A stretch of DNA of 24,885 nt from a virus. Position numbers and translations under genes: made by a program. Positions 860-24,885 of the stretch are shown in pieces. The DNA is taken from the IMG/VR virus record IMGVR_UViG_3300044825_002461, positions 1 to 24,885 of that record. The stretch is one strand, 5' to 3'. The notes beneath the pieces are model-generated. The model did not search any database. It was not told where the DNA came from and worked only from the letters and a program-made list of their open reading frames with translations. How positions within the stretch are numbered: position 1 is the first letter of the stretch; every line of letters begins with the position of its first letter.

Positions 860-1513
860 TTACAATGAATTTAAAAAATTATTGAATAAAGATAACTTGT
901 ATTCTTCTAGAATACCTTGATCTACTAGAGTGTTTATCCTATGTTTGGTATTCTCTGCTACTTTTTCTCTTAACATTCCACCATCCCACACCCACTCTTT
1001 TCCTTCCATGATTCCCTGAACAAATGCATCGGGAGCAGAAGGATCCGCAACAATATCGGCAGCGGTGGCAAGCATGAAGTCTTCGCCAACTTCGTTATAT
1101 CCTTCTTTTGTTGGTCTTACTGATCCAATACCACGAGAAGAAACGCCAAGAGTAACTCCTTCTTTGAGAAGTGACTCTGCAATTTTACCCATTGGTGTAG
1201 AAAGAATTTGTGCCTTACCAATAAAATCGTTTCCTCTTTGAACAAGTTCAACAATTTTGTGCGAAACTCTATCCAGATTTACAGTGGGTCCATCTGGATG
1301 TCCAAGTTCACCAAGAGCACGACCTTTATTTACATACTGTTCAGTATAACGTTTTACCTCTCTTTCCATAACAGGCATACGGTATATCCTGTTATTGCGA
1401 TTGGGTTGTTCAGTTTGTAGGAAAGGACCCCGAATATAGAGAGTTTGTTTACCATTCACCGTTTCGGTAAGAACTTCTACTGATTCGATTTCTTCGGTAA
1501 TAAGTTTCATCAT
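860..1513 (-). CDS. 21: Prohead core protease gp21
   Basis: Maturation protease of the T4 prohead, a serine protease with a herpesvirus-assemblin-like fold that cleaves scaffold and internal proteins after (I/L)xE sites. The 217-residue product shows GELGHPDGP with probable catalytic His72, the SSRG motif with the probable nucleophile Ser at 125/126, and a DIVADPSAPDAF segment with a possible third catalytic acid. Its length is close to T4 gp21 (212 aa). The start is ATG 1513, whose ATGA overlaps the stop of the upstream gene, with AGGA about 8 nt upstream; the next codon is also ATG (1510), so the start could be one residue later. It lies immediately before the scaffold gene, as in T4. Confidence 0.95.
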   Translation of the reverse strand: MMKLITEEIESVEVLTETVNGKQTLYIRGPFLQTEQPNRNNRIYRMPVMEREVKRYTEQYVNKGRALGELGHPDGPTVNLDRVSHKIVELVQRGNDFIGKAQILSTPMGKIAESLLKEGVTLGVSSRGIGSVRPTKEGYNEVGEDFMLATAADIVADPSAPDAFVQGIMEGKEWVWDGGMLREKVAENTKHRINTLVDQGILEEYKLSLFNNFLNSL

Positions 1514-3478: not shown

Positions 3479-3799
3479 TCAATCAATCCATTCTAATTTT
3501 GATGGGTGGTATCTTTGTGCGTTTTTTATATTTAAATTTTTCTCTGTTACTGGATAAATTTGATGAACAACTGCTCCTGGATAATCTGATTGCAGTTGTT
3601 CACCAAGTTCTCTAGTGGAAGGGATTCCAGTTTTTGTCACTAGTTCTAATCTATAAAAACTTCCATTCCACATTACATCGGCAACATACTCTTCACCGAC
3701 TTGTTGTGGTTGTTCCGATTGTGAGTTGATATAAAGATTTCCCGTGAAATCACCAGCAATATTAACTGATTCTGAGATAAATTGCTTGAAAGATTTCAT
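3479..3799 (-). CDS. Putative internal/prohead core protein with capsid-targeting N-terminus (106 aa)
   Basis: The protein begins MKSFKQFISES, which matches the capsid-targeting sequence of T4 internal proteins (IPIII starts MKTYQEFIAE). The expected gp21 cleavage site IxE lies at residues 8-10, the same position as in T4. It would be packed into the prohead core, trimmed after Glu10 and perhaps ejected with DNA. Residues 38-80 form a small beta/alpha-looking domain (VMWNGSFYRLEL, then EQLQSDYPGAVV) that recurs in the 584-aa protein at 12234-10480. ATG 3799 is preferred over an in-frame start 30 nt upstream: it lies 1 nt after the gp67 stop with GAGGAA just ahead, and only this start exposes the targeting sequence. 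The position is that of T4 gene 68, but I see no clear gp68 similarity. Confidence 0.75.
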   Translation of the reverse strand: MKSFKQFISESVNIAGDFTGNLYINSQSEQPQQVGEEYVADVMWNGSFYRLELVTKTGIPSTRELGEQLQSDYPGAVVHQIYPVTEKNLNIKNAQRYHPSKLEWID

Positions 3800-3986: not shown

Positions 3987-3994
3987 TATTTATA
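3987..3994 (-). promoter_or_regulatory. Late promoter TATAAATA containing the gp20 stop codon
   Basis: Exact T4-type late octamer. Its central TAA (3992-3990) is the stop codon of the portal gene (GAG ATA TAA ATA). ATG of gp67 is 25 nt downstream. It should drive gp67, the 106-aa gene and the 458-aa gene. Confidence 0.8.
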
Positions 3995-5696: not shown

Positions 5697-5704
5697 TATT
5701 TATG
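5697..5704 (-). promoter_or_regulatory. Late promoter CATAAATA overlapping the gp19 stop codon
   Basis: Seven of eight bases match TATAAATA. The tube gene ends GAA GCA TAA ATA, so the stop TAA (5702-5700) is inside the octamer. The portal ATG is 28 nt downstream, after an A-rich leader with a weak AAAGGA about 20 nt from the start. Confidence 0.7.
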
Positions 5705-8583: not shown

Positions 8584-8814
8584 CTACCAATCGGGATATT
8601 CCCATCTACCAAGAACTTTACTTGTCATCTTACTGGATACAATTCTTTTAATTGTACATTCCTTACACTCATATGAATATGATGATAAAACAGGACCCCT
8701 ATCTTTTCTTGTTCTATAAAAACTGTCTATTAAATTTTTTATTTCTCCACACACTCTGCATTTTCTATCAGTAAGTAGTAAATGCCCCAATAGTATTTGC
8801 TTATCTAAATCCAT
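8584..8814 (-). CDS. Small CxxC...CxxC zinc-finger protein (76 aa)
   Basis: A 76-residue basic protein with two CxxC knuckles at Cys19/Cys22 and Cys50/Cys53, separated by a KNLIDSFYRTRKDRG-type loop and followed by TIKRI. The knuckle pair resembles the zinc ribbon of HNH-like phage proteins, but no HNH catalytic histidines are visible, so nuclease activity should not be assumed. Such short proteins recur in marine phages without known function. ATG 8814 overlaps the gp17 stop by one base (TAATG), implying coupling to the terminase. A GTG 18 nt upstream in frame would give 82 residues but lies inside gp17. Nucleic-acid binding is the most that can be inferred. Confidence 0.7.
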   Translation of the reverse strand: MDLDKQILLGHLLLTDRKCRVCGEIKNLIDSFYRTRKDRGPVLSSYSYECKECTIKRIVSSKMTSKVLGRWEYPDW

Positions 8815-10463
8815 TATGTTAAATAATCCCACATATAAGATCTATCTCCATATTCATCGACATACCATCTGTCCCCATCTCCATCAACAAAACTTGCTTC
8901 ATCTAAACCGTCAGAAATAAATCCAAATGGTGCCATGTCTTGTTCAATTTGATTTTTTTGCTCTTCATATAAACGTTTTCTTACATCTTGATCCGTTAAT
9001 TCCTTAAAATAATCTTGCGCAACTAGCCAAGCATAAATTACCAGACACATTGCCAAGTCGTCGTTGCATCCTTCTTCCGCCTCAAACGAATTATGTTTTT
9101 GAATAAAAGTTGTCAGTTCACTAATAATTTCATAATCATTCAAGTATAACTTGTTTTCCTCTATCATTGTTTTCAGATTTAGGCATCCAACTTTTTTTAC
9201 AGTTTTGGACATTTTAACGCCTAGTTGAGTTTTTTTCCCACTAAATCCTTGTCCAACAATTTGCCCTGCCCTACCTCTCATTGAACACATGAGAAGATTA
9301 TTATATTCTAGATCATACTGCAAAATACTAGCTACCTGATCACCAACATCGTTTACTTCACATAAAATGTATGAATTATTATATGCAACGGCTGTCTCGT
9401 GAATTATACTTGGAAACAGCATAGGTTTGATTTCATTATTCCTATATTTTGCAACTACTCTATGGGGGAACTGAGTAATATCAACCACGGCAAATGCAGA
9501 ATAGTCACTCCCAACTCCTCTCGCAACATCAACTGTAATTAAGTAATCGTGATTTTCCTCCGGATCCACATAAACATCTAAACCAGCACTGCGTGTTTTT
9601 GGATGATCGTAAACTAATGTTCTAAGTTTACTCGGAGCGATGAGAGTATCAACAGAACCTAAAAATTCGCATTCAAACTCTACCTTAAATTGTGATTCGC
9701 TAGTGTTAGCAATTGTTTGCTTTTTCCACTCTTCATCCCTGCCAGGAACTTCACTCCAGTGAACATCAGTAAAGACATATTCATTTTTTCCCTTTTCGGC
9801 ATCGTGCCACATTCGGTAGAAATGATTCATACCATGTGGCGTAGATACGATTATGACTTTTGTTTGTTTACCGGAAGTAATAGTAGGATAAACAGATGCA
9901 AAGAAGGAATCTGCGATATGGTTTGGAACGAAAGCGAATTCATCGAGAAAGAGGATATTGAACGACATGCCTCGGACAGCACTTGCAGATGTAGAAGCAG
10001 CCAGAATCTTTGATCCATTTTCTAACTCCAGTGAACCTTTATTCCAAGATATAATACCCTGCTGCATCCACTTGGGTAGGTTTTCATATGCAGTCTGTAA
10101 CCTATCCAGAAGCTCCCTAGCGGTCGCTGCTTTGTTTGCTAGGATGCCTATGTTAACGTTATCATTAAATACCGCATAGTGAAGCAGGAAAGACACAACA
10201 GTGGTTGACTTGCCAGTCTGTCGTGGCATTTTGCAGATATTAAATCTGTGCTTATGGAAATTATTGATTAATTTTTCCTGAAAATGGTATGGGTTGAAAG
10301 TTTGTAACCCATGATCCAACGTAACAATTTTTACATAATTATTAGCGAAATACACAGGATCTTCCTGGCATTTGACAAACTCCAGAATTTGTTCCTGACT
10401 AAATTCAATTGGAGTATTCGCTTTTTTTAATAGAGGATTACCGAGATAAACATCATTTGGCAT
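8814..10463 (-). CDS. 17: Terminase large subunit gp17 (packaging ATPase/nuclease)
   Basis: Motor that pumps DNA into the prohead through the portal and cuts the concatemer. At 549 residues it is somewhat shorter than T4 gp17 (610 aa). The ATPase domain has Walker A RQTGKST (81-87), Walker B ILFLDEF (170-176, Asp174/Glu175) and the coupling motif STPHG (207-211). The RNase H-like nuclease domain has VDVARG (Asp312), CEVND (Glu369) and CNDDLAM (Asp468/469), matching the three-acid site. All key residues are present and the gene looks intact. ATG 10463 follows the 584-aa gene by 16 nt with a GGTAGG-like ribosome-binding site. In T4 the small subunit gene is directly upstream; here the 584-aa gene lies between. 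Confidence 0.97.
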   Translation of the reverse strand: MPNDVYLGNPLLKKANTPIEFSQEQILEFVKCQEDPVYFANNYVKIVTLDHGLQTFNPYHFQEKLINNFHKHRFNICKMPRQTGKSTTVVSFLLHYAVFNDNVNIGILANKAATARELLDRLQTAYENLPKWMQQGIISWNKGSLELENGSKILAASTSASAVRGMSFNILFLDEFAFVPNHIADSFFASVYPTITSGKQTKVIIVSTPHGMNHFYRMWHDAEKGKNEYVFTDVHWSEVPGRDEEWKKQTIANTSESQFKVEFECEFLGSVDTLIAPSKLRTLVYDHPKTRSAGLDVYVDPEENHDYLITVDVARGVGSDYSAFAVVDITQFPHRVVAKYRNNEIKPMLFPSIIHETAVAYNNSYILCEVNDVGDQVASILQYDLEYNNLLMCSMRGRAGQIVGQGFSGKKTQLGVKMSKTVKKVGCLNLKTMIEENKLYLNDYEIISELTTFIQKHNSFEAEEGCNDDLAMCLVIYAWLVAQDYFKELTDQDVRKRLYEEQKNQIEQDMAPFGFISDGLDEASFVDGDGDRWYVDEYGDRSYMWDYLT

Positions 10464-10479
10464 AACAAAAACCTACCTA

Positions 10480-12234
10480 TTAATTACAATTCCAGCGACG
10501 AAGTGCCTTATTAATTCTTGAATCTGGATCTCTTGCTGTTTCTGCTGAGGTTAATCTCTTTTTCATACCGGACATACGACTACAAAAATTTTTTCTTCTC
10601 TGCGCTCTTTTACCGGATGGATTTTTTTCAGTAACAGCAGTCTGGAGTTTCGAACCTGGATTTTCGCGACGATATGCATTTACTGCTTTTTGACTTAAAC
10701 CATCTGTATTATCCTTACGGTTTACTTTTTGCCAATCTTCATCAACTTCAATTTCTTCTCCCATCATTCCCGTAGGTTTTATATAGTTTTTATTTGACCC
10801 AAGTTTTGCTAAACTACCACCTTGAGGTCCAAATGATTGGATTAGAGGCTGTCCTGGTTGGAGTTCAGAGACTGAATGACTGACTACAATTGATCCGGGA
10901 TAAACTTTTTGCAGTTCATCATTAATCTCTTTGCGAGTTGGAAGTTTGACTTGTGGGAAGAACATTCTGAAAGAATAATACTTTCCTCTCCAAGAAACAA
11001 TAACTGCAATTATATTTCCAGTCTGTGCTTTAATACGTGTTGCTTCTTCTATTTGCGATTTAAATCCCTTAATTGGTTCTGGCTTAATTAAATCTACAAC
11101 TTCAGCAAAAGTATTACCGTCTGCATCTTCAATGGTGGCATCTTCTGCCTTTACGCAGCGATTATACTTTTTACCAAAAAGTTTCTGTGTTCCTTTCTTT
11201 TTATATCCTGGCCAACACTTCATCTCATCCATTATTTTATCAACTATTTTTTCTTCTTGCATTTCTCCACTCATAACATAATCTGCGGCAGTATCAATGT
11301 AATCTGCTGCTTTAGTAATTTTTGATTGTACCCATGCTTCAAGGTTACCCTCACCTTTCCCTATTTTTGCATTAAGTCTCTTTGCTGCATTCATCAAGGT
11401 TCCAAGTTCTGATCTCACCATTGAATATTCTTCATCTTTAACTGAAACTTTATCCCACGCCCTTTCTCCATAAGAGCACTCAGATCTTGATTCTCTTTTA
11501 TTGCATAATGGGCAATATCTTTCTTCTTCGTGCATTATTGCCTCCGACTTAGTTCCCCAATTTGCAGCACCAACTTTACGACACTTAACAAGTGCTCCAG
11601 AAGCATATGCACTTGGCCAGACACTGTATCTTGACTTTACTTTATGGTAACAAGCGTCTTTTTTGCCACTACTTTTGCCTGGTTTATCTTTGACTTCTTG
11701 TAAATCCATTTCTTCAGTTCTAACGTTTGTTGGTTTTGCTGCTCCACTTTTTTGTGGTTGATTTGGATCTTGAATATTCTTTCTACGTCTTGCTGCCTCT
11801 TCTTCATCCTTAGAAAGTGCTCTTTTTATTTTAGAACTTCCGCATTTTGGTGTAGAAGTTTGTCCAGGTTGGCGAGCACAGGGTTTTCCTGCCCACTTAC
11901 CTCCAAGTTGAACCCATCCTTTTTTTCCGTCAGATGATTTTGATTTATTGAACCAATCATGAAGACCTTCATCCCCAGATTTAGTTTCTTCTTTGACATC
12001 TTTAAATTTTTTATGATGCTTTTTGGCATCTGCTTCCATTTTCTTCAATCGAGTGTAGTAATCTGGAATTTCATCAAGATGCTGAAGAGCAATATCTCTT
12101 GCAAGATCGTGATCTTTGGTATGCTCGTGCTCAATGGGTTCTCCCATGTCAAGTTGCCTTTGTATGAAAGAAACATCGAGACGATGCTTCTTTGCAATCT
12201 GTTCAACTGTTTTGTGAGATTTAATATTACCCAT
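10480..12234 (-). CDS. Modular protein of small marine-phage domains (DUF5661/DUF5872/DUF6321-like), 584 aa
   Basis: A string of small modules joined by charged linkers. Residues 1-70 resemble DUF5661 (HEHTKDHDLARDIALQHLDEIPDYYTRL). Residues 90-173 resemble DUF5872 (HDWFNKSKSSDGKKGW, Cys119, Cys131, SGAAKPT). Residues 191-228 hold a two-Cys module (KDACYHKVKSRY...GALVKCRKVGAANWG). Residues 240-325 have CPLC-x8-C and a helical segment LEAWVQSKITKAADYID. Residues 338-362 have a CWPGYKKKGTQ...NRCVK pair. Residues 409-452 repeat the domain of the 106-aa prohead protein. Residues 500-584 resemble DUF6321 (NRKDNTDGLSQKAVNAYRRENPG, ending RRWNCN). Family names are from memory. The N- and C-terminal modules and linkers are strongly basic, so DNA binding or packing in the capsid is plausible but unproven. 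The start is ATG 12234, not the TTG just upstream; a late promoter lies at 12265-12258. Confidence 0.75.
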   Translation of the reverse strand: MGNIKSHKTVEQIAKKHRLDVSFIQRQLDMGEPIEHEHTKDHDLARDIALQHLDEIPDYYTRLKKMEADAKKHHKKFKDVKEETKSGDEGLHDWFNKSKSSDGKKGWVQLGGKWAGKPCARQPGQTSTPKCGSSKIKRALSKDEEEAARRRKNIQDPNQPQKSGAAKPTNVRTEEMDLQEVKDKPGKSSGKKDACYHKVKSRYSVWPSAYASGALVKCRKVGAANWGTKSEAIMHEEERYCPLCNKRESRSECSYGERAWDKVSVKDEEYSMVRSELGTLMNAAKRLNAKIGKGEGNLEAWVQSKITKAADYIDTAADYVMSGEMQEEKIVDKIMDEMKCWPGYKKKGTQKLFGKKYNRCVKAEDATIEDADGNTFAEVVDLIKPEPIKGFKSQIEEATRIKAQTGNIIAVIVSWRGKYYSFRMFFPQVKLPTRKEINDELQKVYPGSIVVSHSVSELQPGQPLIQSFGPQGGSLAKLGSNKNYIKPTGMMGEEIEVDEDWQKVNRKDNTDGLSQKAVNAYRRENPGSKLQTAVTEKNPSGKRAQRRKNFCSRMSGMKKRLTSAETARDPDSRINKALRRWNCN

Positions 12235-12240
12235 CAATAT

Positions 12241-12280
12241 AAAAAAGAACCTTTATGTATTTATTATTCCAAAGGTTCTT
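12241..12280 (-). terminator. Terminator-like hairpin at the end of gp16
   Basis: A perfect 10-bp inverted repeat AAGAACCTTT / AAAGGTTCTT (12280-12271 and 12254-12245) encloses a 16-nt loop and continues into six T residues on the minus strand, the layout of an intrinsic terminator. The stem is AU-rich with three G-C pairs, so it may be weak. Its first arm is the last codons of gp16, and its loop contains the gp16 stop and the AATAAATA promoter of the next gene. Confidence 0.55.
12258..12265 (-). promoter_or_regulatory. Late promoter AATAAATA overlapping the gp16 stop codon
   Basis: Seven of eight bases match TATAAATA. The stop TAA (12266-12264) runs into the octamer (GAA TAA TAAATA). ATG of the 584-aa gene is 24 nt downstream. 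The site lies within the loop of the hairpin at 12280-12245. Confidence 0.65.
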
Positions 12281-12698
12281 GAGTTTGTTGTTTTAGTAGT
12301 TTTGCTAGTTCTGCAGTAGATCCCACAAAAAGTGCATTATTTACTGTTGTTGGACCTTTACCAACTTTTTCTTCTTCAATATCTTTCAATTTCTTTTGCA
12401 AATCCATTAGCTTATCAGTTGCATCTGCAACATTCTTTATCAATTGTCCTGCAACTTCATATGCTCTCGGCATTTCACTCTCTTGCGCTAACTCCAGAAT
12501 ACCGTTAATCGCCTCTTGTCCTTTTTCTATTAAACTATACAGATTTCCTCTGGTGTATTCATAATCTTTTTTTACATCATCTACCGATGAAGAAATACTT
12601 TCAATCTTTGCAATGGGAGATTCCTTTTCAACACGCATTAAATCACTCTCAATGTTAAAGGTTTGGTTTAGATCATCGAATTTTTTTGACATTTTCAT
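12264..12698 (-). CDS. 16: Terminase small subunit gp16
   Basis: Ring-forming regulator of DNA packaging that works with gp17. The 144-residue product is close to T4 gp16 (164 aa) and is almost wholly helical. Its segment YEYTRGNLYSLIEKGQEAINGILELAQESEMPRAYEVAGQLIKNVADATDKLMDLQKK (about 46-105) is typical of the family, with a coiled-coil-like central hairpin and a flexible C-terminus ending VNNALFVGSTAELAKLLKQ. ATG 12698 is 6 nt after the gp15 stop; a second ATG two codons later (12692) is possible. No promoter motif precedes it, so it is probably expressed with gp15. Confidence 0.92.
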   Translation of the reverse strand: MKMSKKFDDLNQTFNIESDLMRVEKESPIAKIESISSSVDDVKKDYEYTRGNLYSLIEKGQEAINGILELAQESEMPRAYEVAGQLIKNVADATDKLMDLQKKLKDIEEEKVGKGPTTVNNALFVGSTAELAKLLKQQTQEPLE

Positions 12699-13742: not shown

Positions 13743-13750
13743 TATTTATC
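13743..13750 (-). promoter_or_regulatory. Late promoter-like GATAAATA overlapping the gp14 stop codon
   Basis: Seven of eight bases match TATAAATA. The gp14 gene ends CCA TGA TAAATA, so the stop TGA (13751-13749) supplies the first two bases. The gp15 ATG is 37 nt downstream. It would drive gp15 and gp16. Confidence 0.6.
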
Positions 13751-18937: not shown

Positions 18938-19336
18938 TTAGTTATCAAAACTAACATCACCATAATTTAAAGTTAATTCTTCGCCGACATCAATATCACG
19001 CAATGCATAATGCCTCATAACTTCATTTATCTTATCGACTTCATAATCCACATTTGATTTGTCTCGATTATGATTATACAGACCGGCAAATCCCATTCCT
19101 ATTATGTAATAATCGTTGCAATAGTAATAACTATAATTTTCGCATATTGCAGAACATTTAATTTCATCAGTAGGAACTTTAAAATAGGGAGACTCTTCTA
19201 GGATTTCATATTTTTTTATTTTTTCCCTAGCAAAAACTCCCCACCTATGAATATCCGATCTTTTAATGATTAATTTTTCGGAGAATAAAAGTTCATCTAA
19301 ATGCATTGATCTAGGTAAATTTGGGTCAATTCTCAT
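18938..19336 (-). CDS. SET-domain protein, putative protein-lysine methyltransferase (132 aa)
   Basis: Residues 20-127 form a compact SET domain, a fold that transfers methyl from S-adenosylmethionine to lysine side chains. Visible motifs are the N-terminal HRWGVFAREKIKKYEIL (30-46), the cofactor-binding knot element GLYNHNRDKSNVDYEV (85-100, the NHS/NHC equivalent), and ALRDIDVGEELTLNYGD (111-127) with probable catalytic Tyr125. No pre- or post-SET cysteine clusters are present, as expected for bacterial and viral stand-alone SET proteins. ATG 19336 directly follows the stop of the S74 fragment, with GAGGTG 6 nt upstream. The gene is flanked by fibre/baseplate genes, so a virion protein is a candidate substrate; a host target is equally possible. 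Confidence 0.82.
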   Translation of the reverse strand: MRIDPNLPRSMHLDELLFSEKLIIKRSDIHRWGVFAREKIKKYEILEESPYFKVPTDEIKCSAICENYSYYYCNDYYIIGMGFAGLYNHNRDKSNVDYEVDKINEVMRHYALRDIDVGEELTLNYGDVSFDN

Positions 19337-19603
19337 TCAATTCACCTCATTTTTATCTTTTAAAAAATCTACTTCCTTTTTTAATTCCTTTATTGCTTCA
19401 ATCATAACGGGAATCAATTGCATATAATCAACAGCTAAATAACCATTTTCCTGTCTTTCTACCATCTCAGGAAATTCTTTTTGAACTTCCTGAGCTATGA
19501 CTCCGTATGCGTTTCCAGTAACCCCGGTAATCTCCTTCATTTTTTCATTCCACTCATAATATTTTCCATTTAACTTTGTTACTTTGTCAAGATAGAACCC
19601 CAT
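19337..19603 (-). CDS. C-terminal part of S74 intramolecular chaperone domain (88 aa)
   Basis: This frame encodes most of a peptidase S74 / endosialidase-type chaperone domain: LNGKYYEWNEKM (about 11-22), YGVIAQEVQKEFPEMVE (33-49), GYLAVDYMQLIPVMIEAIKELKKE (54-77) and a short coiled-coil tail. Such domains trimerise at the C-terminus of phage fibres, guide folding and then cut themselves off. The usual N-terminal start of the domain (SDINLKDNI) is instead in the preceding long gene, in another frame, with 17 bp overlap. ATG 19603 has no clear ribosome-binding site. Either the chaperone is split, or a one-base change or +1 frameshift at GGGG (19601-19598) joins them. Confidence 0.75.
   Translation of the reverse strand: MGFYLDKVTKLNGKYYEWNEKMKEITGVTGNAYGVIAQEVQKEFPEMVERQENGYLAVDYMQLIPVMIEAIKELKKEVDFLKDKNEVN
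19343..19348 (-). promoter_or_regulatory. Ribosome-binding site for the SET gene
   Basis: GAGGTG on the minus strand, 6 nt before ATG 19336. It lies inside the end of the S74 fragment gene and supports ATG 19336 as the true start of the SET gene. Confidence 0.65.
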
Positions 19604-22600
19604 AATTCAAATTAAGTTCAAACAATCTATTTAGCGCATTGTCAATAGGTTGGATATTATCCTTAAGGTTTATATCACTCATACCCATTCCACCGCCTCC
19701 ACCGCCGCCGGAACTTCCACCGCCGCCTGACATACCGCCACCGCCGCCACCGCCGCCGCCACCGCCGCCGCCGCCGCTGCTACCCATAGAACCGCCGCCG
19801 CCGCCACCGCCGCCGCCTCCTGAGCTTCCACCACCGCCGCCGCCACCGCCGCCGCTGCTACCCATAGGACCACCACCACTGCTTCCACCAGCCTGTGATG
19901 GTGGAGTAGATGGAGTACTGCTCATAGCTGGTCCCGGAGAAGGTTGATTCATTGGACCGGAATCATTACTCATAGATCCACTCGACATCGAATCTCCGCT
20001 TGACATCGAATTATTATTATTTGCTGCAGCCATTGGTGTGTCTGGATTCATGTCATTACCAGAACTCATATTGTTATTGCTATTTGATGCCATTGATCCA
20101 TCATTTCCTTTGTCATTGGCTCCCATTCTATCTCCTGGACCAATCTTAGAACCTTCAGCCCCAACGGCAGCCATTGCTTCAATCCTCATTGCTTCTCCCG
20201 GTTGAGCTGTTGTAATTACCTGGGACATCATGGCATTGTTCGTATTTAGAACATATCCATTTTCTTGAGCATACTCTGACATATTGAATTTGTTAACAAA
20301 CTTAGTTTGTTGTGCAGCAGGCATATCCTTATCAACCTTCATAGCTTGATCCTTCAAACCAGCTTCCCTCAGGAGTTGTTTAAATCTATCAGCTCCAGCA
20401 TCATATAACATTGGAGTTCCTCTATTATAATAAAGATTAGTCACACTCATAGGTGTAGGTGTAGGTCCAATTGGTGTAGGTCCAATTGGTGTAGGTCCAA
20501 TTGGTGTAGGACCAATTGGTGTAGGACCAATTGGTGTAGGACCAATTGGTGTAGGACCAATTGGTGTAGGATCAAAAGGACCAAAAGGTGTAGGTTCAAA
20601 AGCAGGAGGAACCGGTGTAGGACCAGGAGCAACCGGTGTAGGACCAGGAGCAACCGGTGTAGGACCAGGAGCAACCGGTGTAGGACCAAAAGGTGTAGGA
20701 CCTGGTACTGGTGCTGGTACTGGTGCTGGACCGGGAGTTGGTGGATCTGAGTCACCAAATTCAACTCTTATAGGTCTCGATACTATCAAGTTTTCTTGAA
20801 CTGTGTTTATCTTTCCTTCAGCAACATATTTTTCTTCCCCAGACGTGGTAAATGTACCAAATACTAAAGAATTTGTGGAGCTACTGGTTAATCGGAATAT
20901 TTTAGTTCCACATTCAAATTTGGGATTAATATCAATATTTGGATTAGGGATGAAGAAACTTCCTAGAATAGTGCCATTTTCATTTGTTACTAGTCTATTA
21001 TTTGTTACTATTGCTTCAGCTCCACTAGTTAATCCTCTCAAGATCATTCCCGAAGTAATATATCCAGAAAATTGACCTTGTGGTTGATTAGCTAAACTAA
21101 ATGTGTCTACATTTAATATTGTTGATGTGGATGAATATGTTTCCGGAACAACCACAGATGGTGAATATGGATTTGCTATAAAGAAATCAGATGGATTATT
21201 AAAAGTTCCATACTTATGATTTTGGTTGGCAACTCTAAATGTTATTGTTGATGCGCCTGTCCGTAGAGGATATCCAACAACAGTTTCTCCTACTTGAAAT
21301 ACCCCTCTAGACATTTGAATCTCAAGAAGTTTTGGTACAATAAATTTATTAACATCTATTCCACCAAAGAAAGAATAAAGTCTCGTGAAAGGTCTAAATC
21401 GTTTTGCGATAAATTCGACATTACGGGACCTCATAAATGGTATTACTCTTGTGTCTAGTACTCTATCGCCAAAGGAAGTTCTTTTTTCTGGTATAATCCA
21501 AGTTTTTGTGACAGCATCCCATGTGCTTCCCGCATAACCTGATTGGGGATCTGAGTTTAAAATATTCTCAAGTTCTTGTTCTTCTCTATCAAGAAGAAGA
21601 ATATTTGCGGCATTTCTTACTTGATCTACCCAAACATCTGACGATGGGTATAAGAAAATAGTTCCGGTGAAAAAGTCTTCAGCGTATGGATTTACGTTGA
21701 CAGCTCTAGTTGCAAATGGTTGATCTATGAAAATCTGCTCTTGATAATCTAAAGTAATAACTTGACCAGTTTTTCTTACTCCTTGACCATTGACAGTTGT
21801 TAAAGTTCTAAAGTCTGCTGTTCCTATTCCTGTAACATTAGTATCGAGTAATAAATCAATAGATGTTGTGAAATGAGGAGGTCTTAGTTCCAAATTTACA
21901 TTATCAATTGAGTTTTTGGCAATTACACTTCTGTCTTGAGTGTCTCTAGTGGAGAAGTTATCGACGAAAAATCCAGATTTAAATCTATCAATCCCTTTAG
22001 AATCTTTTACCGGAAAACTAGAAGCATTTACTTCAAGTAAAGAAAGGGATGTGTAGAATTCTAGATTTTCAATTCTATCTTCTAGTTTATTAATATCTAA
22101 CATCCTATATCTTTTATGTTCTTTCAAATCAATATCAATTTCATTAATATTGGTGATATATGGAGGAAGATATGCTGTAGCTACTTCTAAAGCATCTTCA
22201 TTAAGAACAGGTTGCTGTGGTTTCTCTGAAGGAGCCCCAAGTTTTAACTGGAAATTTCCAGATTTATCCAGAAGAATCTTATCAATTCTCGGCAAATAAT
22301 AGGAATATGATAATACAATATCTTCATCTGCGGCTAAAATATTGGATGCAGAATTTCCGGATGATGTAAAGTCTCTTGATAAAAATTCAAATGGAGATCT
22401 AGAATTTTCTGTGGGACTTATTGGAGAAACTCTTGGTCTTACATCTAGTATATCGGAATTTCTTAGTGTGCTATATGTATTTTTTATTAGAGAATAATCA
22501 AATTGACTGTAAGAATTTACTGTTGTTATATCTCCAGTATCGGATGATGAAAAACTTGCAGATTCGAAGACAATTTTTAATTTTCTTTTTGGCTCTTTGG

Positions 22601-24885
22601 CAATAGAGGTATCCCTAATAAGTTTGGAAAAATCATAAATGGTTTCCTTTTGATTTGGATCGAAAATAAATGATCTGCTTATATCAAAGTCACCTCCATC
22701 ATATACTGAAATTAAAGCCGTAATTCCAGATTCAGTAAATCTTACCCTCTCACCTTCAGTAAATATATTTGAATTTAAGTAACAAAATCCTATTTTTAAA
22801 TCATTAATTCTTTCTGCTAAAATTGCAACAGCTTCACTATCTTCTCCTACTATTTCCTCGCCTATAATAAGATCTGTAGTTTTGCCTGTTGGTCCATTAA
22901 GAGACGTTAGAACAGTTGATGGTAAATCTGGAGTTAAAGTGTTATTTGATTCATAAATTCCATAAACAGATGTAACATCTGACTCAAGTAAACAAATTTC
23001 TTCGTCTTGAACTCTTGTTCCATATGGATAATTTCCATACGTAAGACCATCATTTAAAGTAGTTGTGCCAATTCCCGAGGAAGAATATTTTGACTTATCG
23101 ACAATTATTGATTTAATTCTGTTTCTATTTTTTACTTTTGCTTTTACGTTAATTTTTCTAAGAGTAGCAATTAATTTTCCTGGACCATTTCCAGACAATC
23201 CACTTATTATTAGTGATTTTCCTCCATTAAAAATTTCAAACATGTCAGATCGCAAAGACTCGACCGTTCCATTTTGACGTACTAAAACATATCTTTCTTC
23301 ATCAAAGGGTAAAAACGTCTGATCAGTATCTGCATTTATTGTTCCCGTTGAATTGGAAGTAATTGTTACATCATATTGTTTTCTTATTATTAGATTAGAA
23401 TCAGTTAAATCGACATCGGAAACATATGATTTTGGAAGAATTGTATATAAAGAATTATCTATAGAATTTTGTAGAGAAGATCCTAAAATTGTAAAATCAG
23501 ATACTGATATAGTTGATTGTGGTAGACCACCATCACATATACCAGTAACAGTAGTAACTCCACTGATTGTCAGAGAATTTGCAGATACTGATTCAATTTT
23601 AGCAAAAGTAGCTGTAGAGAAACCAGGATTTGAAAACGACACTAAGTTTCCGGTACTAGCTACTCCAACAAATTCGCCTTTAGCACTAGTAACAGTGCTG
23701 ATTCCTGCGTTGGAGCGTGCTGTTATAGTTACCTGACCAATATTTATTAAAGTGCTTTGAATTACATCTCCTGAAAATGTATATGAAGTTCCTACTTGAC
23801 CAAATATTGATTTTACATCAGATGTTCCAAATGATCTAACCGTTCTAGTTACTCTTGTATTTTCTATTCCATCAAAAATGAGTTTTTCTCCAAGAGAAAA
23901 TTTTCCACTTGTACAATAAGCAGTTATTGCCGTTCCCGCAGAAACATTAAATCTTAAAAATCCAACAGCACCACTCTCTTTTCCTTTTATATGTGTTGGA
24001 GTTCTTAAAGTTATTGGTTCATTTAATGTAATATTTGTATATGTTTGAACATCGTAAAGTGAAATATCCCATTGATTTTGATTTAAATTTGATGTAATAT
24101 ATGATCCGGTTTCGAGAGCAAAATCATAAACTCGCGCTAGACCAATCTCATTTCCTGCAGCAATAGTTGCTGCAGATCCTACTCTGGAGTCTCTAAGACT
24201 TACAATATATGTTGTCGCCGCACTGACAATAGGAACTCCATATACTCTATTTAAAGTAAAAGTTGGTCCAGTGTAGTAATTAATACTTTGTCCTTTTAAA
24301 GTATTGCTACTCCTTGTTTTGGGGAAGTCTAAAAATGTTGGACTAAAAGTTTCAATTTCAAATCCTCTTACATATGCCTTAAGTGGAGATATGTTATAAA
24401 CCCCCAAATTGGTATTTGGGACATTTCCGTCGTATGTTAATTGCCCCTCTCTAAAAACTCCGTTATTACCTCTTAAATTATTTAAAGATTCTTGAGTGTT
24501 TATGATAGGAGGAACAACATAATAATCTCCGGATTCATCATAAGTTCTTCTAGCAAATTCTTGAGCTAAAACATTATACTGTGGATTATTTGTGGTGTTG
24601 GTCAATTGACCAGCATTAATTTCCATTAATTGAACAAAATTATCAGTTTCATTAGATAATAAAGGTATTTTGTCAAGCTTTACTGAAATTGATAATCTAT
24701 CTGCTCCAGGAGCGGCAAAATTAGAAAATCCCTGTGCATTATCATATAAATCTGGATCATCGAAAGCATTTTTGACAGTTTCAAAGACTCTAAATCCAAC
24801 TTTATAACTTGGTATATTTGAGTATGGATCCAAGTATAAAATACTTGTCGGGACAGATACAAAAAATCCTCTGATGAAATAAATT
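19587..24885 (-). CDS. Giant baseplate/tail-fibre protein, DUF4815-like, with low-complexity tip and S74 start (5' end beyond window)
   Basis: The frame is open to the window edge. A TTG at 24833 is not the start, since the sense codons upstream (YFIRGFFV...) continue the same domain, so at least 1765 residues are coded. Most of it (24885 to about 20780) resembles the DUF4815 baseplate/fibre family of marine T4-like phages (SYKVGFRVFE, LSPLKAYVRGFEIE-like ISPLKAYVRGFEIET, and later FRPFTRLYSFFGG). It then changes character: proline-rich repeats (20750-20455), an unrecognised globular-looking segment (about 20450-20120), a Met/Asn/Ser-rich stretch (about 20110-19890), polyglycine runs up to 14 Gly (19889-19683) and SDINLKDNI, the start of an S74 chaperone domain with its usual self-cleavage site before Ser. 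It stops in VLS, 17 bp into the 88-aa frame. Confidence 0.85.
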   Translation of the reverse strand, partial: IYFIRGFFVSVPTSILYLDPYSNIPSYKVGFRVFETVKNAFDDPDLYDNAQGFSNFAAPGADRLSISVKLDKIPLLSNETDNFVQLMEINAGQLTNTTNNPQYNVLAQEFARRTYDESGDYYVVPPIINTQESLNNLRGNNGVFREGQLTYDGNVPNTNLGVYNISPLKAYVRGFEIETFSPTFLDFPKTRSSNTLKGQSINYYTGPTFTLNRVYGVPIVSAATTYIVSLRDSRVGSAATIAAGNEIGLARVYDFALETGSYITSNLNQNQWDISLYDVQTYTNITLNEPITLRTPTHIKGKESGAVGFLRFNVSAGTAITAYCTSGKFSLGEKLIFDGIENTRVTRTVRSFGTSDVKSIFGQVGTSYTFSGDVIQSTLINIGQVTITARSNAGISTVTSAKGEFVGVASTGNLVSFSNPGFSTATFAKIESVSANSLTISGVTTVTGICDGGLPQSTISVSDFTILGSSLQNSIDNSLYTILPKSYVSDVDLTDSNLIIRKQYDVTITSNSTGTINADTDQTFLPFDEERYVLVRQNGTVESLRSDMFEIFNGGKSLIISGLSGNGPGKLIATLRKINVKAKVKNRNRIKSIIVDKSKYSSSGIGTTTLNDGLTYGNYPYGTRVQDEEICLLESDVTSVYGIYESNNTLTPDLPSTVLTSLNGPTGKTTDLIIGEEIVGEDSEAVAILAERINDLKIGFCYLNSNIFTEGERVRFTESGITALISVYDGGDFDISRSFIFDPNQKETIYDFSKLIRDTSIAKEPKRKLKIVFESASFSSSDTGDITTVNSYSQFDYSLIKNTYSTLRNSDILDVRPRVSPISPTENSRSPFEFLSRDFTSSGNSASNILAADEDIVLSYSYYLPRIDKILLDKSGNFQLKLGAPSEKPQQPVLNEDALEVATAYLPPYITNINEIDIDLKEHKRYRMLDINKLEDRIENLEFYTSLSLLEVNASSFPVKDSKGIDRFKSGFFVDNFSTRDTQDRSVIAKNSIDNVNLELRPPHFTTSIDLLLDTNVTGIGTADFRTLTTVNGQGVRKTGQVITLDYQEQIFIDQPFATRAVNVNPYAEDFFTGTIFLYPSSDVWVDQVRNAANILLLDREEQELENILNSDPQSGYAGSTWDAVTKTWIIPEKRTSFGDRVLDTRVIPFMRSRNVEFIAKRFRPFTRLYSFFGGIDVNKFIVPKLLEIQMSRGVFQVGETVVGYPLRTGASTITFRVANQNHKYGTFNNPSDFFIANPYSPSVVVPETYSSTSTILNVDTFSLANQPQGQFSGYITSGMILRGLTSGAEAIVTNNRLVTNENGTILGSFFIPNPNIDINPKFECGTKIFRLTSSSTNSLVFGTFTTSGEEKYVAEGKINTVQENLIVSRPIRVEFGDSDPPTPGPAPVPAPVPGPTPFGPTPVAPGPTPVAPGPTPVAPGPTPVPPAFEPTPFGPFDPTPIGPTPIGPTPIGPTPIGPTPIGPTPIGPTPIGPTPTPMSVTNLYYNRGTPMLYDAGADRFKQLLREAGLKDQAMKVDKDMPAAQQTKFVNKFNMSEYAQENGYVLNTNNAMMSQVITTAQPGEAMRIEAMAAVGAEGSKIGPGDRMGANDKGNDGSMASNSNNNMSSGNDMNPDTPMAAANNNNSMSSGDSMSSGSMSNDSGPMNQPSPGPAMSSTPSTPPSQAGGSSGGGPMGSSGGGGGGGGGSSGGGGGGGGGGSMGSSGGGGGGGGGGGGGGMSGGGGSSGGGGGGGMGMSDINLKDNIQPIDNALNRLFELNLNYGVLS
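19683..19889 (-). repeat. Polyglycine-coding GC-rich repeat
   Basis: About 200 bp of GGC/GGT/GGA triplets broken by SS, MGSS and MSG interruptions, coding Gly runs of 7-14. It is strikingly GC-rich in an AT-rich genome. The repeated MGSSG unit suggests expansion by duplication. On the plus strand the same tract gives meaningless poly-Pro frames. Confidence 0.9.
20458..20562 (-). repeat. Seven tandem 15-bp units coding IGPTP
   Basis: Plus-strand unit GGTGTAGGWCCAATT repeated seven times without interruption. The three units at the left carry GGTCCA and the next four GGACCA, showing recent tandem expansion. The encoded stretch is a pentapeptide IGPTP array, probably an extended polyproline-type stalk in the fibre protein. 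Confidence 0.95.
20611..20688 (-). repeat. Three and a half tandem 21-bp units coding APGPTPV
   Basis: Plus-strand unit ACCGGTGTAGGACCAGGAGCA occurs three times in perfect tandem, plus a partial fourth. It encodes heptapeptide APGPTPV repeats next to the 15-bp array. Both share the core GGTGTAGG and probably grew from one ancestor. Confidence 0.9.

Follow-up and report, generated by a model that had tools for sequence, protein, structure and literature searches.

What is encoded between gp16 and gp17, two genes that overlap in T4 itself, in a T4-like cyanophage where the interval holds an entire 584-residue protein? The locus lies in a virus record of 24,885 bases, analyzed over its whole length and referred to here as the window, which is a late gene cluster with every gene on the minus strand. 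The candidate gene starts with an ATG at 12234 and ends with a stop at 10480-10482, so that the originally predicted coordinates (10480-12234) are correct, and matches to the flanking genes confirm its position between gp16 (12264-12698, PF11053/phrog_445) and gp17 (8814-10463, PF03237/PF17289). The window runs from a gp22 fragment through gp21, two ORFs, a small ORF (3799-3479), gp20, gp19, gp18, an endonuclease VII-like gene, gp17, the candidate, gp16, gp15, gp14, and gp13, where gp13, gp14, gp18, gp19, and gp20 were named via gene order against S-SM2. The gp21 gene is intact, and the sole other match to the candidate protein in the record is the small ORF, which is M6-like (Table 1). Elsewhere in the window, a SET-domain protein (PF00856, E 2e-10; 18938-19336, minus strand) is encoded within the structural gene cluster, and two overlapping ORFs (19337-19603 and 19587-24833, minus strand) share an apparent single C-terminal chaperone region (SDINLKDNI... 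/ ...YGVIAQEVQKEFPEMV), a split that looks like a frameshift or sequence error.

The gene had also been predicted to have its own late promoter. A T4-type late motif, ATAAATA, is located at 12258-12264 on the minus strand, in the loop of a hairpin, and the coding minus strand carries every one of the window's 11 copies (e.g., 838-848, 3987-3993, 5697-5703, and 13743-13749), although 11 copies are not above chance (12.8 expected). A scan for sigma-70 promoters returned 18, with 16.6 expected.

Table 1. Features of the candidate gene and related elements in the window, including predicted gp21 cleavage sites.
Feature	Position	Strand	Support or remark
Candidate polyprotein gene (T4-GC 119 / phrog_727)	10480..12234	-	584 aa, pI 9.4
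11-bp hairpin and U-tract, ATAAATA in loop, just upstream of candidate	12245..12280	-	shuffle z -4.0
M1, DUF5661, four-helix bead	11998..12216	-	pLDDT 81-93
Predicted site 1, VKE82/E (cut after E82)	11989..11991	-	P1 Glu 97%
M2 (LHDWF...C...C)	11743..11973	-	profile; stand-alone homologues exist
Predicted site 2, LQE180/V (cut after E180)	11695..11697	-	P1 Glu 98%
M3 (DACYHKVKSRYSVWPSAYASGALVKCRK)	11542..11676	-	profile
Predicted site 3, MHE236/E (cut after E236)	11527..11529	-	P1 Glu 98%
M4 (CPLC) + M4b (LEAWVQSKITKAADY), single unit without internal site (0/64)	11260..11526	-	profile
Predicted site 4, MQE327/E (cut after E327); alternative MDE337	11254..11256	-	P1 Glu 75%
M5 (CWPGYKKKGTQKLFGKKYNRCV)	11131..11232	-	profile
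Sub-module M6a (DADGNTFAEVVDLIKPEPI)	11047..11130	-	
Predicted site 5, IEE397/A (cut after E397)	11044..11046	-	P1 Glu 100%; P1' Ala 62/65
M6, YPG domain	10837..11043	-	pLDDT mostly 77-88
Predicted site 6, MGE493/E (cut after E493)	10756..10758	-	P1 Glu 95%
M7, DUF6321	10486..10737	-	Pfam; family modelled alone
M6 paralogue, phrog_1742, T4-like capsid-targeting N-terminus MKSFKQFISE/S (cut mark after E)	3479..3799	-	
gp21 prohead protease (Peptidase_S77), predicted processing enzyme	860..1513	-	profile matches

Family membership and modular architecture

The locus had been put forward as the best candidate for an undescribed system, and this claim is not supported. The phrog_727 profile matches the candidate with an E-value of 4e-114, which together with the gp16-gp17 position places it in the T4-GC 119 / phrog_727 family, and by tblastn 510 phage records contain relatives, most of these being phages of Synechococcus and Prochlorococcus. 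The S-SM2 relative, SSM2_109, is annotated T4-GC 119 and sits between gp16 and gp17, an interval that was named a hotspot by Sullivan et al. 2010, with credit to Millard et al. 2009 (PMC3037559). The hotspot has been known since 2009-2010, and the family was also known, without a function; members had been called 'hypothetical', 'structural', or 'virion protein', and no mechanism had been attached to them. What is new here are the phi-x-E sites in the linkers, the free-standing module genes, and the capsid-targeting sequences (CTS) at the N-termini of single-module cousins, all of which were missing from the original prediction.

Profiles were built for eight units of the chain, of which M4 and M4b behave as one. 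Pfam recognizes DUF5661 at residues 11-67 (E 8e-14) and DUF6321 at residues 507-581 (E 3.5e-15) in the candidate and nothing beyond these two; the third domain originally named, DUF5872, gives no match in the candidate at the Pfam cut-off and reaches at most a sub-threshold match in stand-alone M3 cousins. The phrog_1742 profile matches the YPG domain (403-451) weakly and the window ORF 3799-3479 (starting MKSFKQFISES) strongly. The AlphaFold2 model of the candidate (70 sequences) has a pTM of 0.22, with confident islands at M1 (pLDDT 81-93) and M6 (70-88) and linkers of pLDDT below 50 at residues 75-88, 155-193, 218-235, 364-400, and 465-499. As modelled, the candidate is a string of beads, and the distinct profile units and confident islands joined by such linkers bear out the mosaic that had been predicted. 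A stand-alone protein of the M7 family was modelled with a pLDDT of 88 and a pTM of 0.69. A PDB sequence search gave no match for the candidate modules, Foldseek returned nothing significant for the full candidate model or M7, and there was no fold match in support of DNA binding. Similarity of M6 to the YkzG/ribosomal LX fold was too weak (E 0.76 and worse) and was set aside.

The original prediction had named a survey of module shuffling in relatives as its own test, and it withstood that test. From 326 loci we obtained 274 proteins with at least four bead kinds including M7, falling into 47 clusters (60% identity), and these 274 relatives display more than 50 module orders, with partial proteins at contig ends counted. 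M4b may precede M2, precede M3, or follow M4, M1 and M4 are gained or lost, and M7 is almost always the last bead. In some relatives a whole DUF192 domain is an additional bead (E 4e-24 and 1e-25). Instances of DUF192 as an added bead or fused to M6 are L003:5704-7830 and L135:5829-7994, both confirmed by Pfam, and L157:1096-2742 and L164:2269-2967, both called by eye.

The modules also occur singly outside T4-like phages. Among 160 loci obtained with stand-alone queries, those without detected T4 genes encode 92 M7-only, 67 M3-only, and 31 M2-only proteins, many of which are small and start at a bead boundary, the point at which the T4-like chain is predicted to be cut (MAKSPAW..., MAKKKDACY..., MSLRKWF...). 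In P-SCSP1b, HTVC023P, and HTVC104P, the capsid gene is followed, at a distance of one to three genes, by an M7 gene. The cryo-EM shell of P-SCSP1u holds the major capsid protein only, so that a P-SCSP1b-like M7 protein, if made there, is not an ordered shell component. Sampling 18 chain-bearing records gave Peptidase_S77 in 15, against 0 of 19 single-module records. This contrast cannot be separated from ancestry (T4-like or not), and the records are possibly incomplete. One record initially listed as single-module (L458) has Peptidase_S77, and its protein resembles by eye an M2-like/M3 fusion. A strict rule of fusion only with gp21 was rejected as absolute because two large records (L472 and L483) have module fusions and gave no Peptidase_S77 or T4-type capsid protein.

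Prohead-protease motifs between the modules

T4 gp21 cleaves after L/I-x-E (PMC9026906). Six of the seven junctions of the candidate carry phi-x-E, with phi usually M, V, I, or L, the exception being M4-M4b, and this match to the gp21 cutting site suggests that the chain may be split into individual proteins within the new head. Motif placement was assessed with the 47 cluster representatives against shuffles that preserve composition. [LIVMF]xE lies within 18 residues upstream of 195 of the 234 module starts, compared with 91.6 ± 6.6 in the shuffles (0 of 500 reach the observed value), and with A/G/S/E/D also required at P1' the count is 159 versus 41. Upstream of the same starts there is no enrichment of the control motifs [LIVMF]E (81 versus 96 shuffled) and [LIVMF]xD (46 versus 43) or of the motif with K replacing E (47 versus 76), and the mild enrichment of [LIVMF]-x-x-E (130 versus 87) is expected because of phi-x-E-E runs. 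These shuffles and position controls rule out that the motifs arise by chance from Glu-rich linkers. With a small or acidic P1', the motif occurs at 23.2 per 1000 aa in linkers versus 1.9 inside modules, a 12-fold difference.

The sites are also conserved. In 64 distinct proteins of the same architecture, the six junctions bear a site in 61-64 and the M4-M4b junction in 0. Five of the six main sites have a P1 Glu conserved at 95-100%, compared with a mean linker conservation of 0.71, and a second motif near site 6, VDE499/D (cut after E499), is 98% conserved. According to AlphaFold2, the predicted sites lie in or next to low-pLDDT linkers. What is broadly expected of a gp21 substrate, L/I-x-E in accessible segments, is present in the candidate as conserved phi-x-E in or next to these linkers, with P3 being M, V, I, or L; that P3 is often M or V is wider than the L/I rule of T4 and counts against the polyprotein reading. 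Cutting at the six sites would give pieces, from N to C, of 82, 98, 56, 91, 70, 96, and 91 aa with net charges of +1, +6, +8, -3, 0, +7, and +10; five of these seven predicted domains of 6-11 kDa are net positive and five have two or three Cys.

It should be noted that site counts are not independent, because many relatives share descent, and that the motif case draws its strength from where the sites lie and how well they are conserved rather than from raw counts. Indeed, in a genome-wide control that ranks ORFs of at least 100 aa by motif excess, gp22 is first and gp21 second in the window, and the excess in the candidate alone is mild (z 1.6). In S-SCSM1, gp22 is first, gp21 third, and the relative S-SCSM1_29 13th of 200, and in S-CREM2, with 145 ORFs ranked, the first four are gp137 (T4-GC 119 family), gp21, gp160 (M2-M5-M3), and gp22. 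A degraded protein, gp22 has 14 motifs in 268 aa.

Could the protein instead work uncut in the head or virion, as a flexible multi-domain chain for packaging, DNA condensation, or ejection? The phi-x-E motifs would then be relics of single-module ancestors whose capsid-targeting sequence ended in -xE, relics that the single-module CTS cousins described below could provide, and the finding of relatives in virions fits such a chain. Relics are expected to decay, however, yet in these fast-evolving linkers five of the six sites retain the P1 Glu at 95-100%, the motif is also present at junctions of non-homologous neighbors, and the modules exclude it. We therefore regard the uncut chain as unlikely.

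Virion association and capsid-targeting sequences in relatives

A place in the virion had also been predicted, and here relatives provide the evidence. S-SCSM1_29 carries the GenBank label 'virion protein', and S-SCSM1 virions were analyzed by mass spectrometry (PMC9602691), while the S-CREM2 virion proteome contains gp137 (4 peptides, 4.1% coverage) and the module protein gp160 (7 peptides, 13.1%) (PMC10665884). These detections in purified virions concern the relatives, not the candidate itself, and they make virion association of the T4-GC 119 / phrog_727 family highly probable. A non-virion intracellular late protein that co-purifies with virions, such as a terminase/packaging regulator or an anti-host protein, would be in keeping with a gene between the terminase genes and with the few peptides in S-CREM2, and the authors of both proteomes warn of co-purification. 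Detection in two independent CsCl-purified phages, along with gp160, and the absence of terminase subunits from the detected proteins of both phages lead us to consider this very unlikely.

About 75 distinct single-module cousins were found, nearly all of them M6, and in many cases a single-module M6 gene is directly downstream of the candidate's relative. Most begin like MKSFKQFLSE/SVNI (the slash marks the cut after E). The candidate's own N-terminus (MGNIKSHKTVEQIAKK) has no recognizable capsid-targeting sequence, which is limited to paralogues and cousins (window 3799-3479; L006 4779-5276). As a check on the signature, S-CREM2 has four annotated proteins with a capsid-targeting-like N-terminus and all of them belong to its 52 virion proteins (hypergeometric 0.003), one of two such proteins in S-SCSM1 is labelled virion, and for the two phages together at least five of six in virions has a probability of 0.002. 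The CTS-bearing M6 protein in S-SCSM1 has no virion label, and, going by gene order, the S-SZBM1 proteome lacks both the M6 and the M7 CTS protein. A tail- or neck-associated protein (a fiber or adhesin accessory) would fit the tail-fiber-like annotation of many genes in the gp16-gp17 hotspot and the fiber-like neighbors in S-SM2, RN05-S, and S-SCSM1. We consider it very unlikely, since the candidate has no fiber repeat or fold, single-module homologues in podoviruses are encoded next to or close to the capsid gene, and the CTS-bearing cousins indicate the head.

Two virion-detected NMNAT/cytidylyltransferases have N-termini of the same kind, MKNFSSFLTE/A in S-CREM2 gp154 (L327:109-969) and MKSFLQFLKE/A in S-SCSM1_91 (L497:39819-41048), and the S-CREM2 SAM hydrolase gp6 begins with the capsid-targeting-like MKDFDSFLEE; such N-termini offer a simple explanation for the repeated detection of NMNAT and SAM hydrolase in cyanophage virions. 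The N-terminus of S-CREM2 gp160 (L327:3843-4736) contains a stretch, GATGFTGAAAPEGPVAGYDPLM, resembling the mature major-capsid-protein N-arm, GADGFTGAAAPGGPNAGFDPVM, and the virion protein S-SCSM1_97 (L497:44121-44306) has a similar stretch; these are possibly capsid-docking mimics.

A proposed mechanism and its relation to known head proteins

We propose that the candidate is a late head polyprotein whose cleavage by gp21 would set free about seven small domains, basic for the most part, that would remain with the DNA, a reading that we consider reasonably likely. It is based on the modularity, the placement and conservation of the motif, the virion-detected relatives, and the free-standing genes in phages without gp21. 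Specifically, the candidate would be made late in infection and taken into the prohead, where activated gp21 would cut after the Glu of phi-x-E in the disordered linkers. The freed domains, about seven of 6-11 kDa, would remain in the head alongside the packaged DNA and probably exit with it at infection. Judged from sequence, gp21 cleavage at the linkers is the best-supported mechanism, and we hold it with moderate confidence. We further suggest, as an idea that falls somewhat short of probable, that the chain is an exchangeable delivery cassette in which beads, even DUF192, are added, lost, and reordered with a protease site after each, so that a single targeting event would load many separate proteins for injection into cyanobacteria. 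Injection and effector roles of the beads are a shade more tentative still, and the multi-effector protein originally envisaged is possible.

In its predicted action the candidate resembles the internal proteins as a substrate of gp21. It shares with T4 IPI-III and Alt the gp21 motif, small basic domains, and, as predicted here, a head-internal fate, and the N-termini of its cousins (MKSFKQFISE/S) are nearly identical to those of T4 IPIII and IPII (MKTYQEFIAE/A, cut after E). The T4 internal proteins, however, are single proteins that lose terminal propeptides and have an N-terminal capsid-targeting sequence, whereas for the candidate, a chain, about six internal cuts are predicted. The candidate falls outside the T4 internal protein family as defined, because that targeting sequence was looked for and not found. 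The prohead core proteins gp22, gp67, and gp68 of T4 likewise have multiple phi-x-E sites, late expression, and neighboring genes, but in gp22 the sites are scattered and the protein is degraded, while those of the candidate are confined to linkers and spare the modules. In the giant phages SPN3US and phiKZ, one x-x-E protease cuts one head protein repeatedly, similar to the several cuts predicted here, although the extra cuts strip long propeptides and the accessible part of that source reports no shuffled domain chain (PMC10052503).

If gp21 does cut the chain, a sequence rule would follow, namely phi-x-E between beads or an N-terminal MK-S/T-F-x-x-F-L-x-E. The proteins that cyanophages inject alongside their DNA are largely unknown, and the rule, if true, would predict which proteins these abundant ocean viruses package. 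The candidate would then be, to our knowledge, the first described tailed-phage protein built as a cleavable multi-domain polyprotein.
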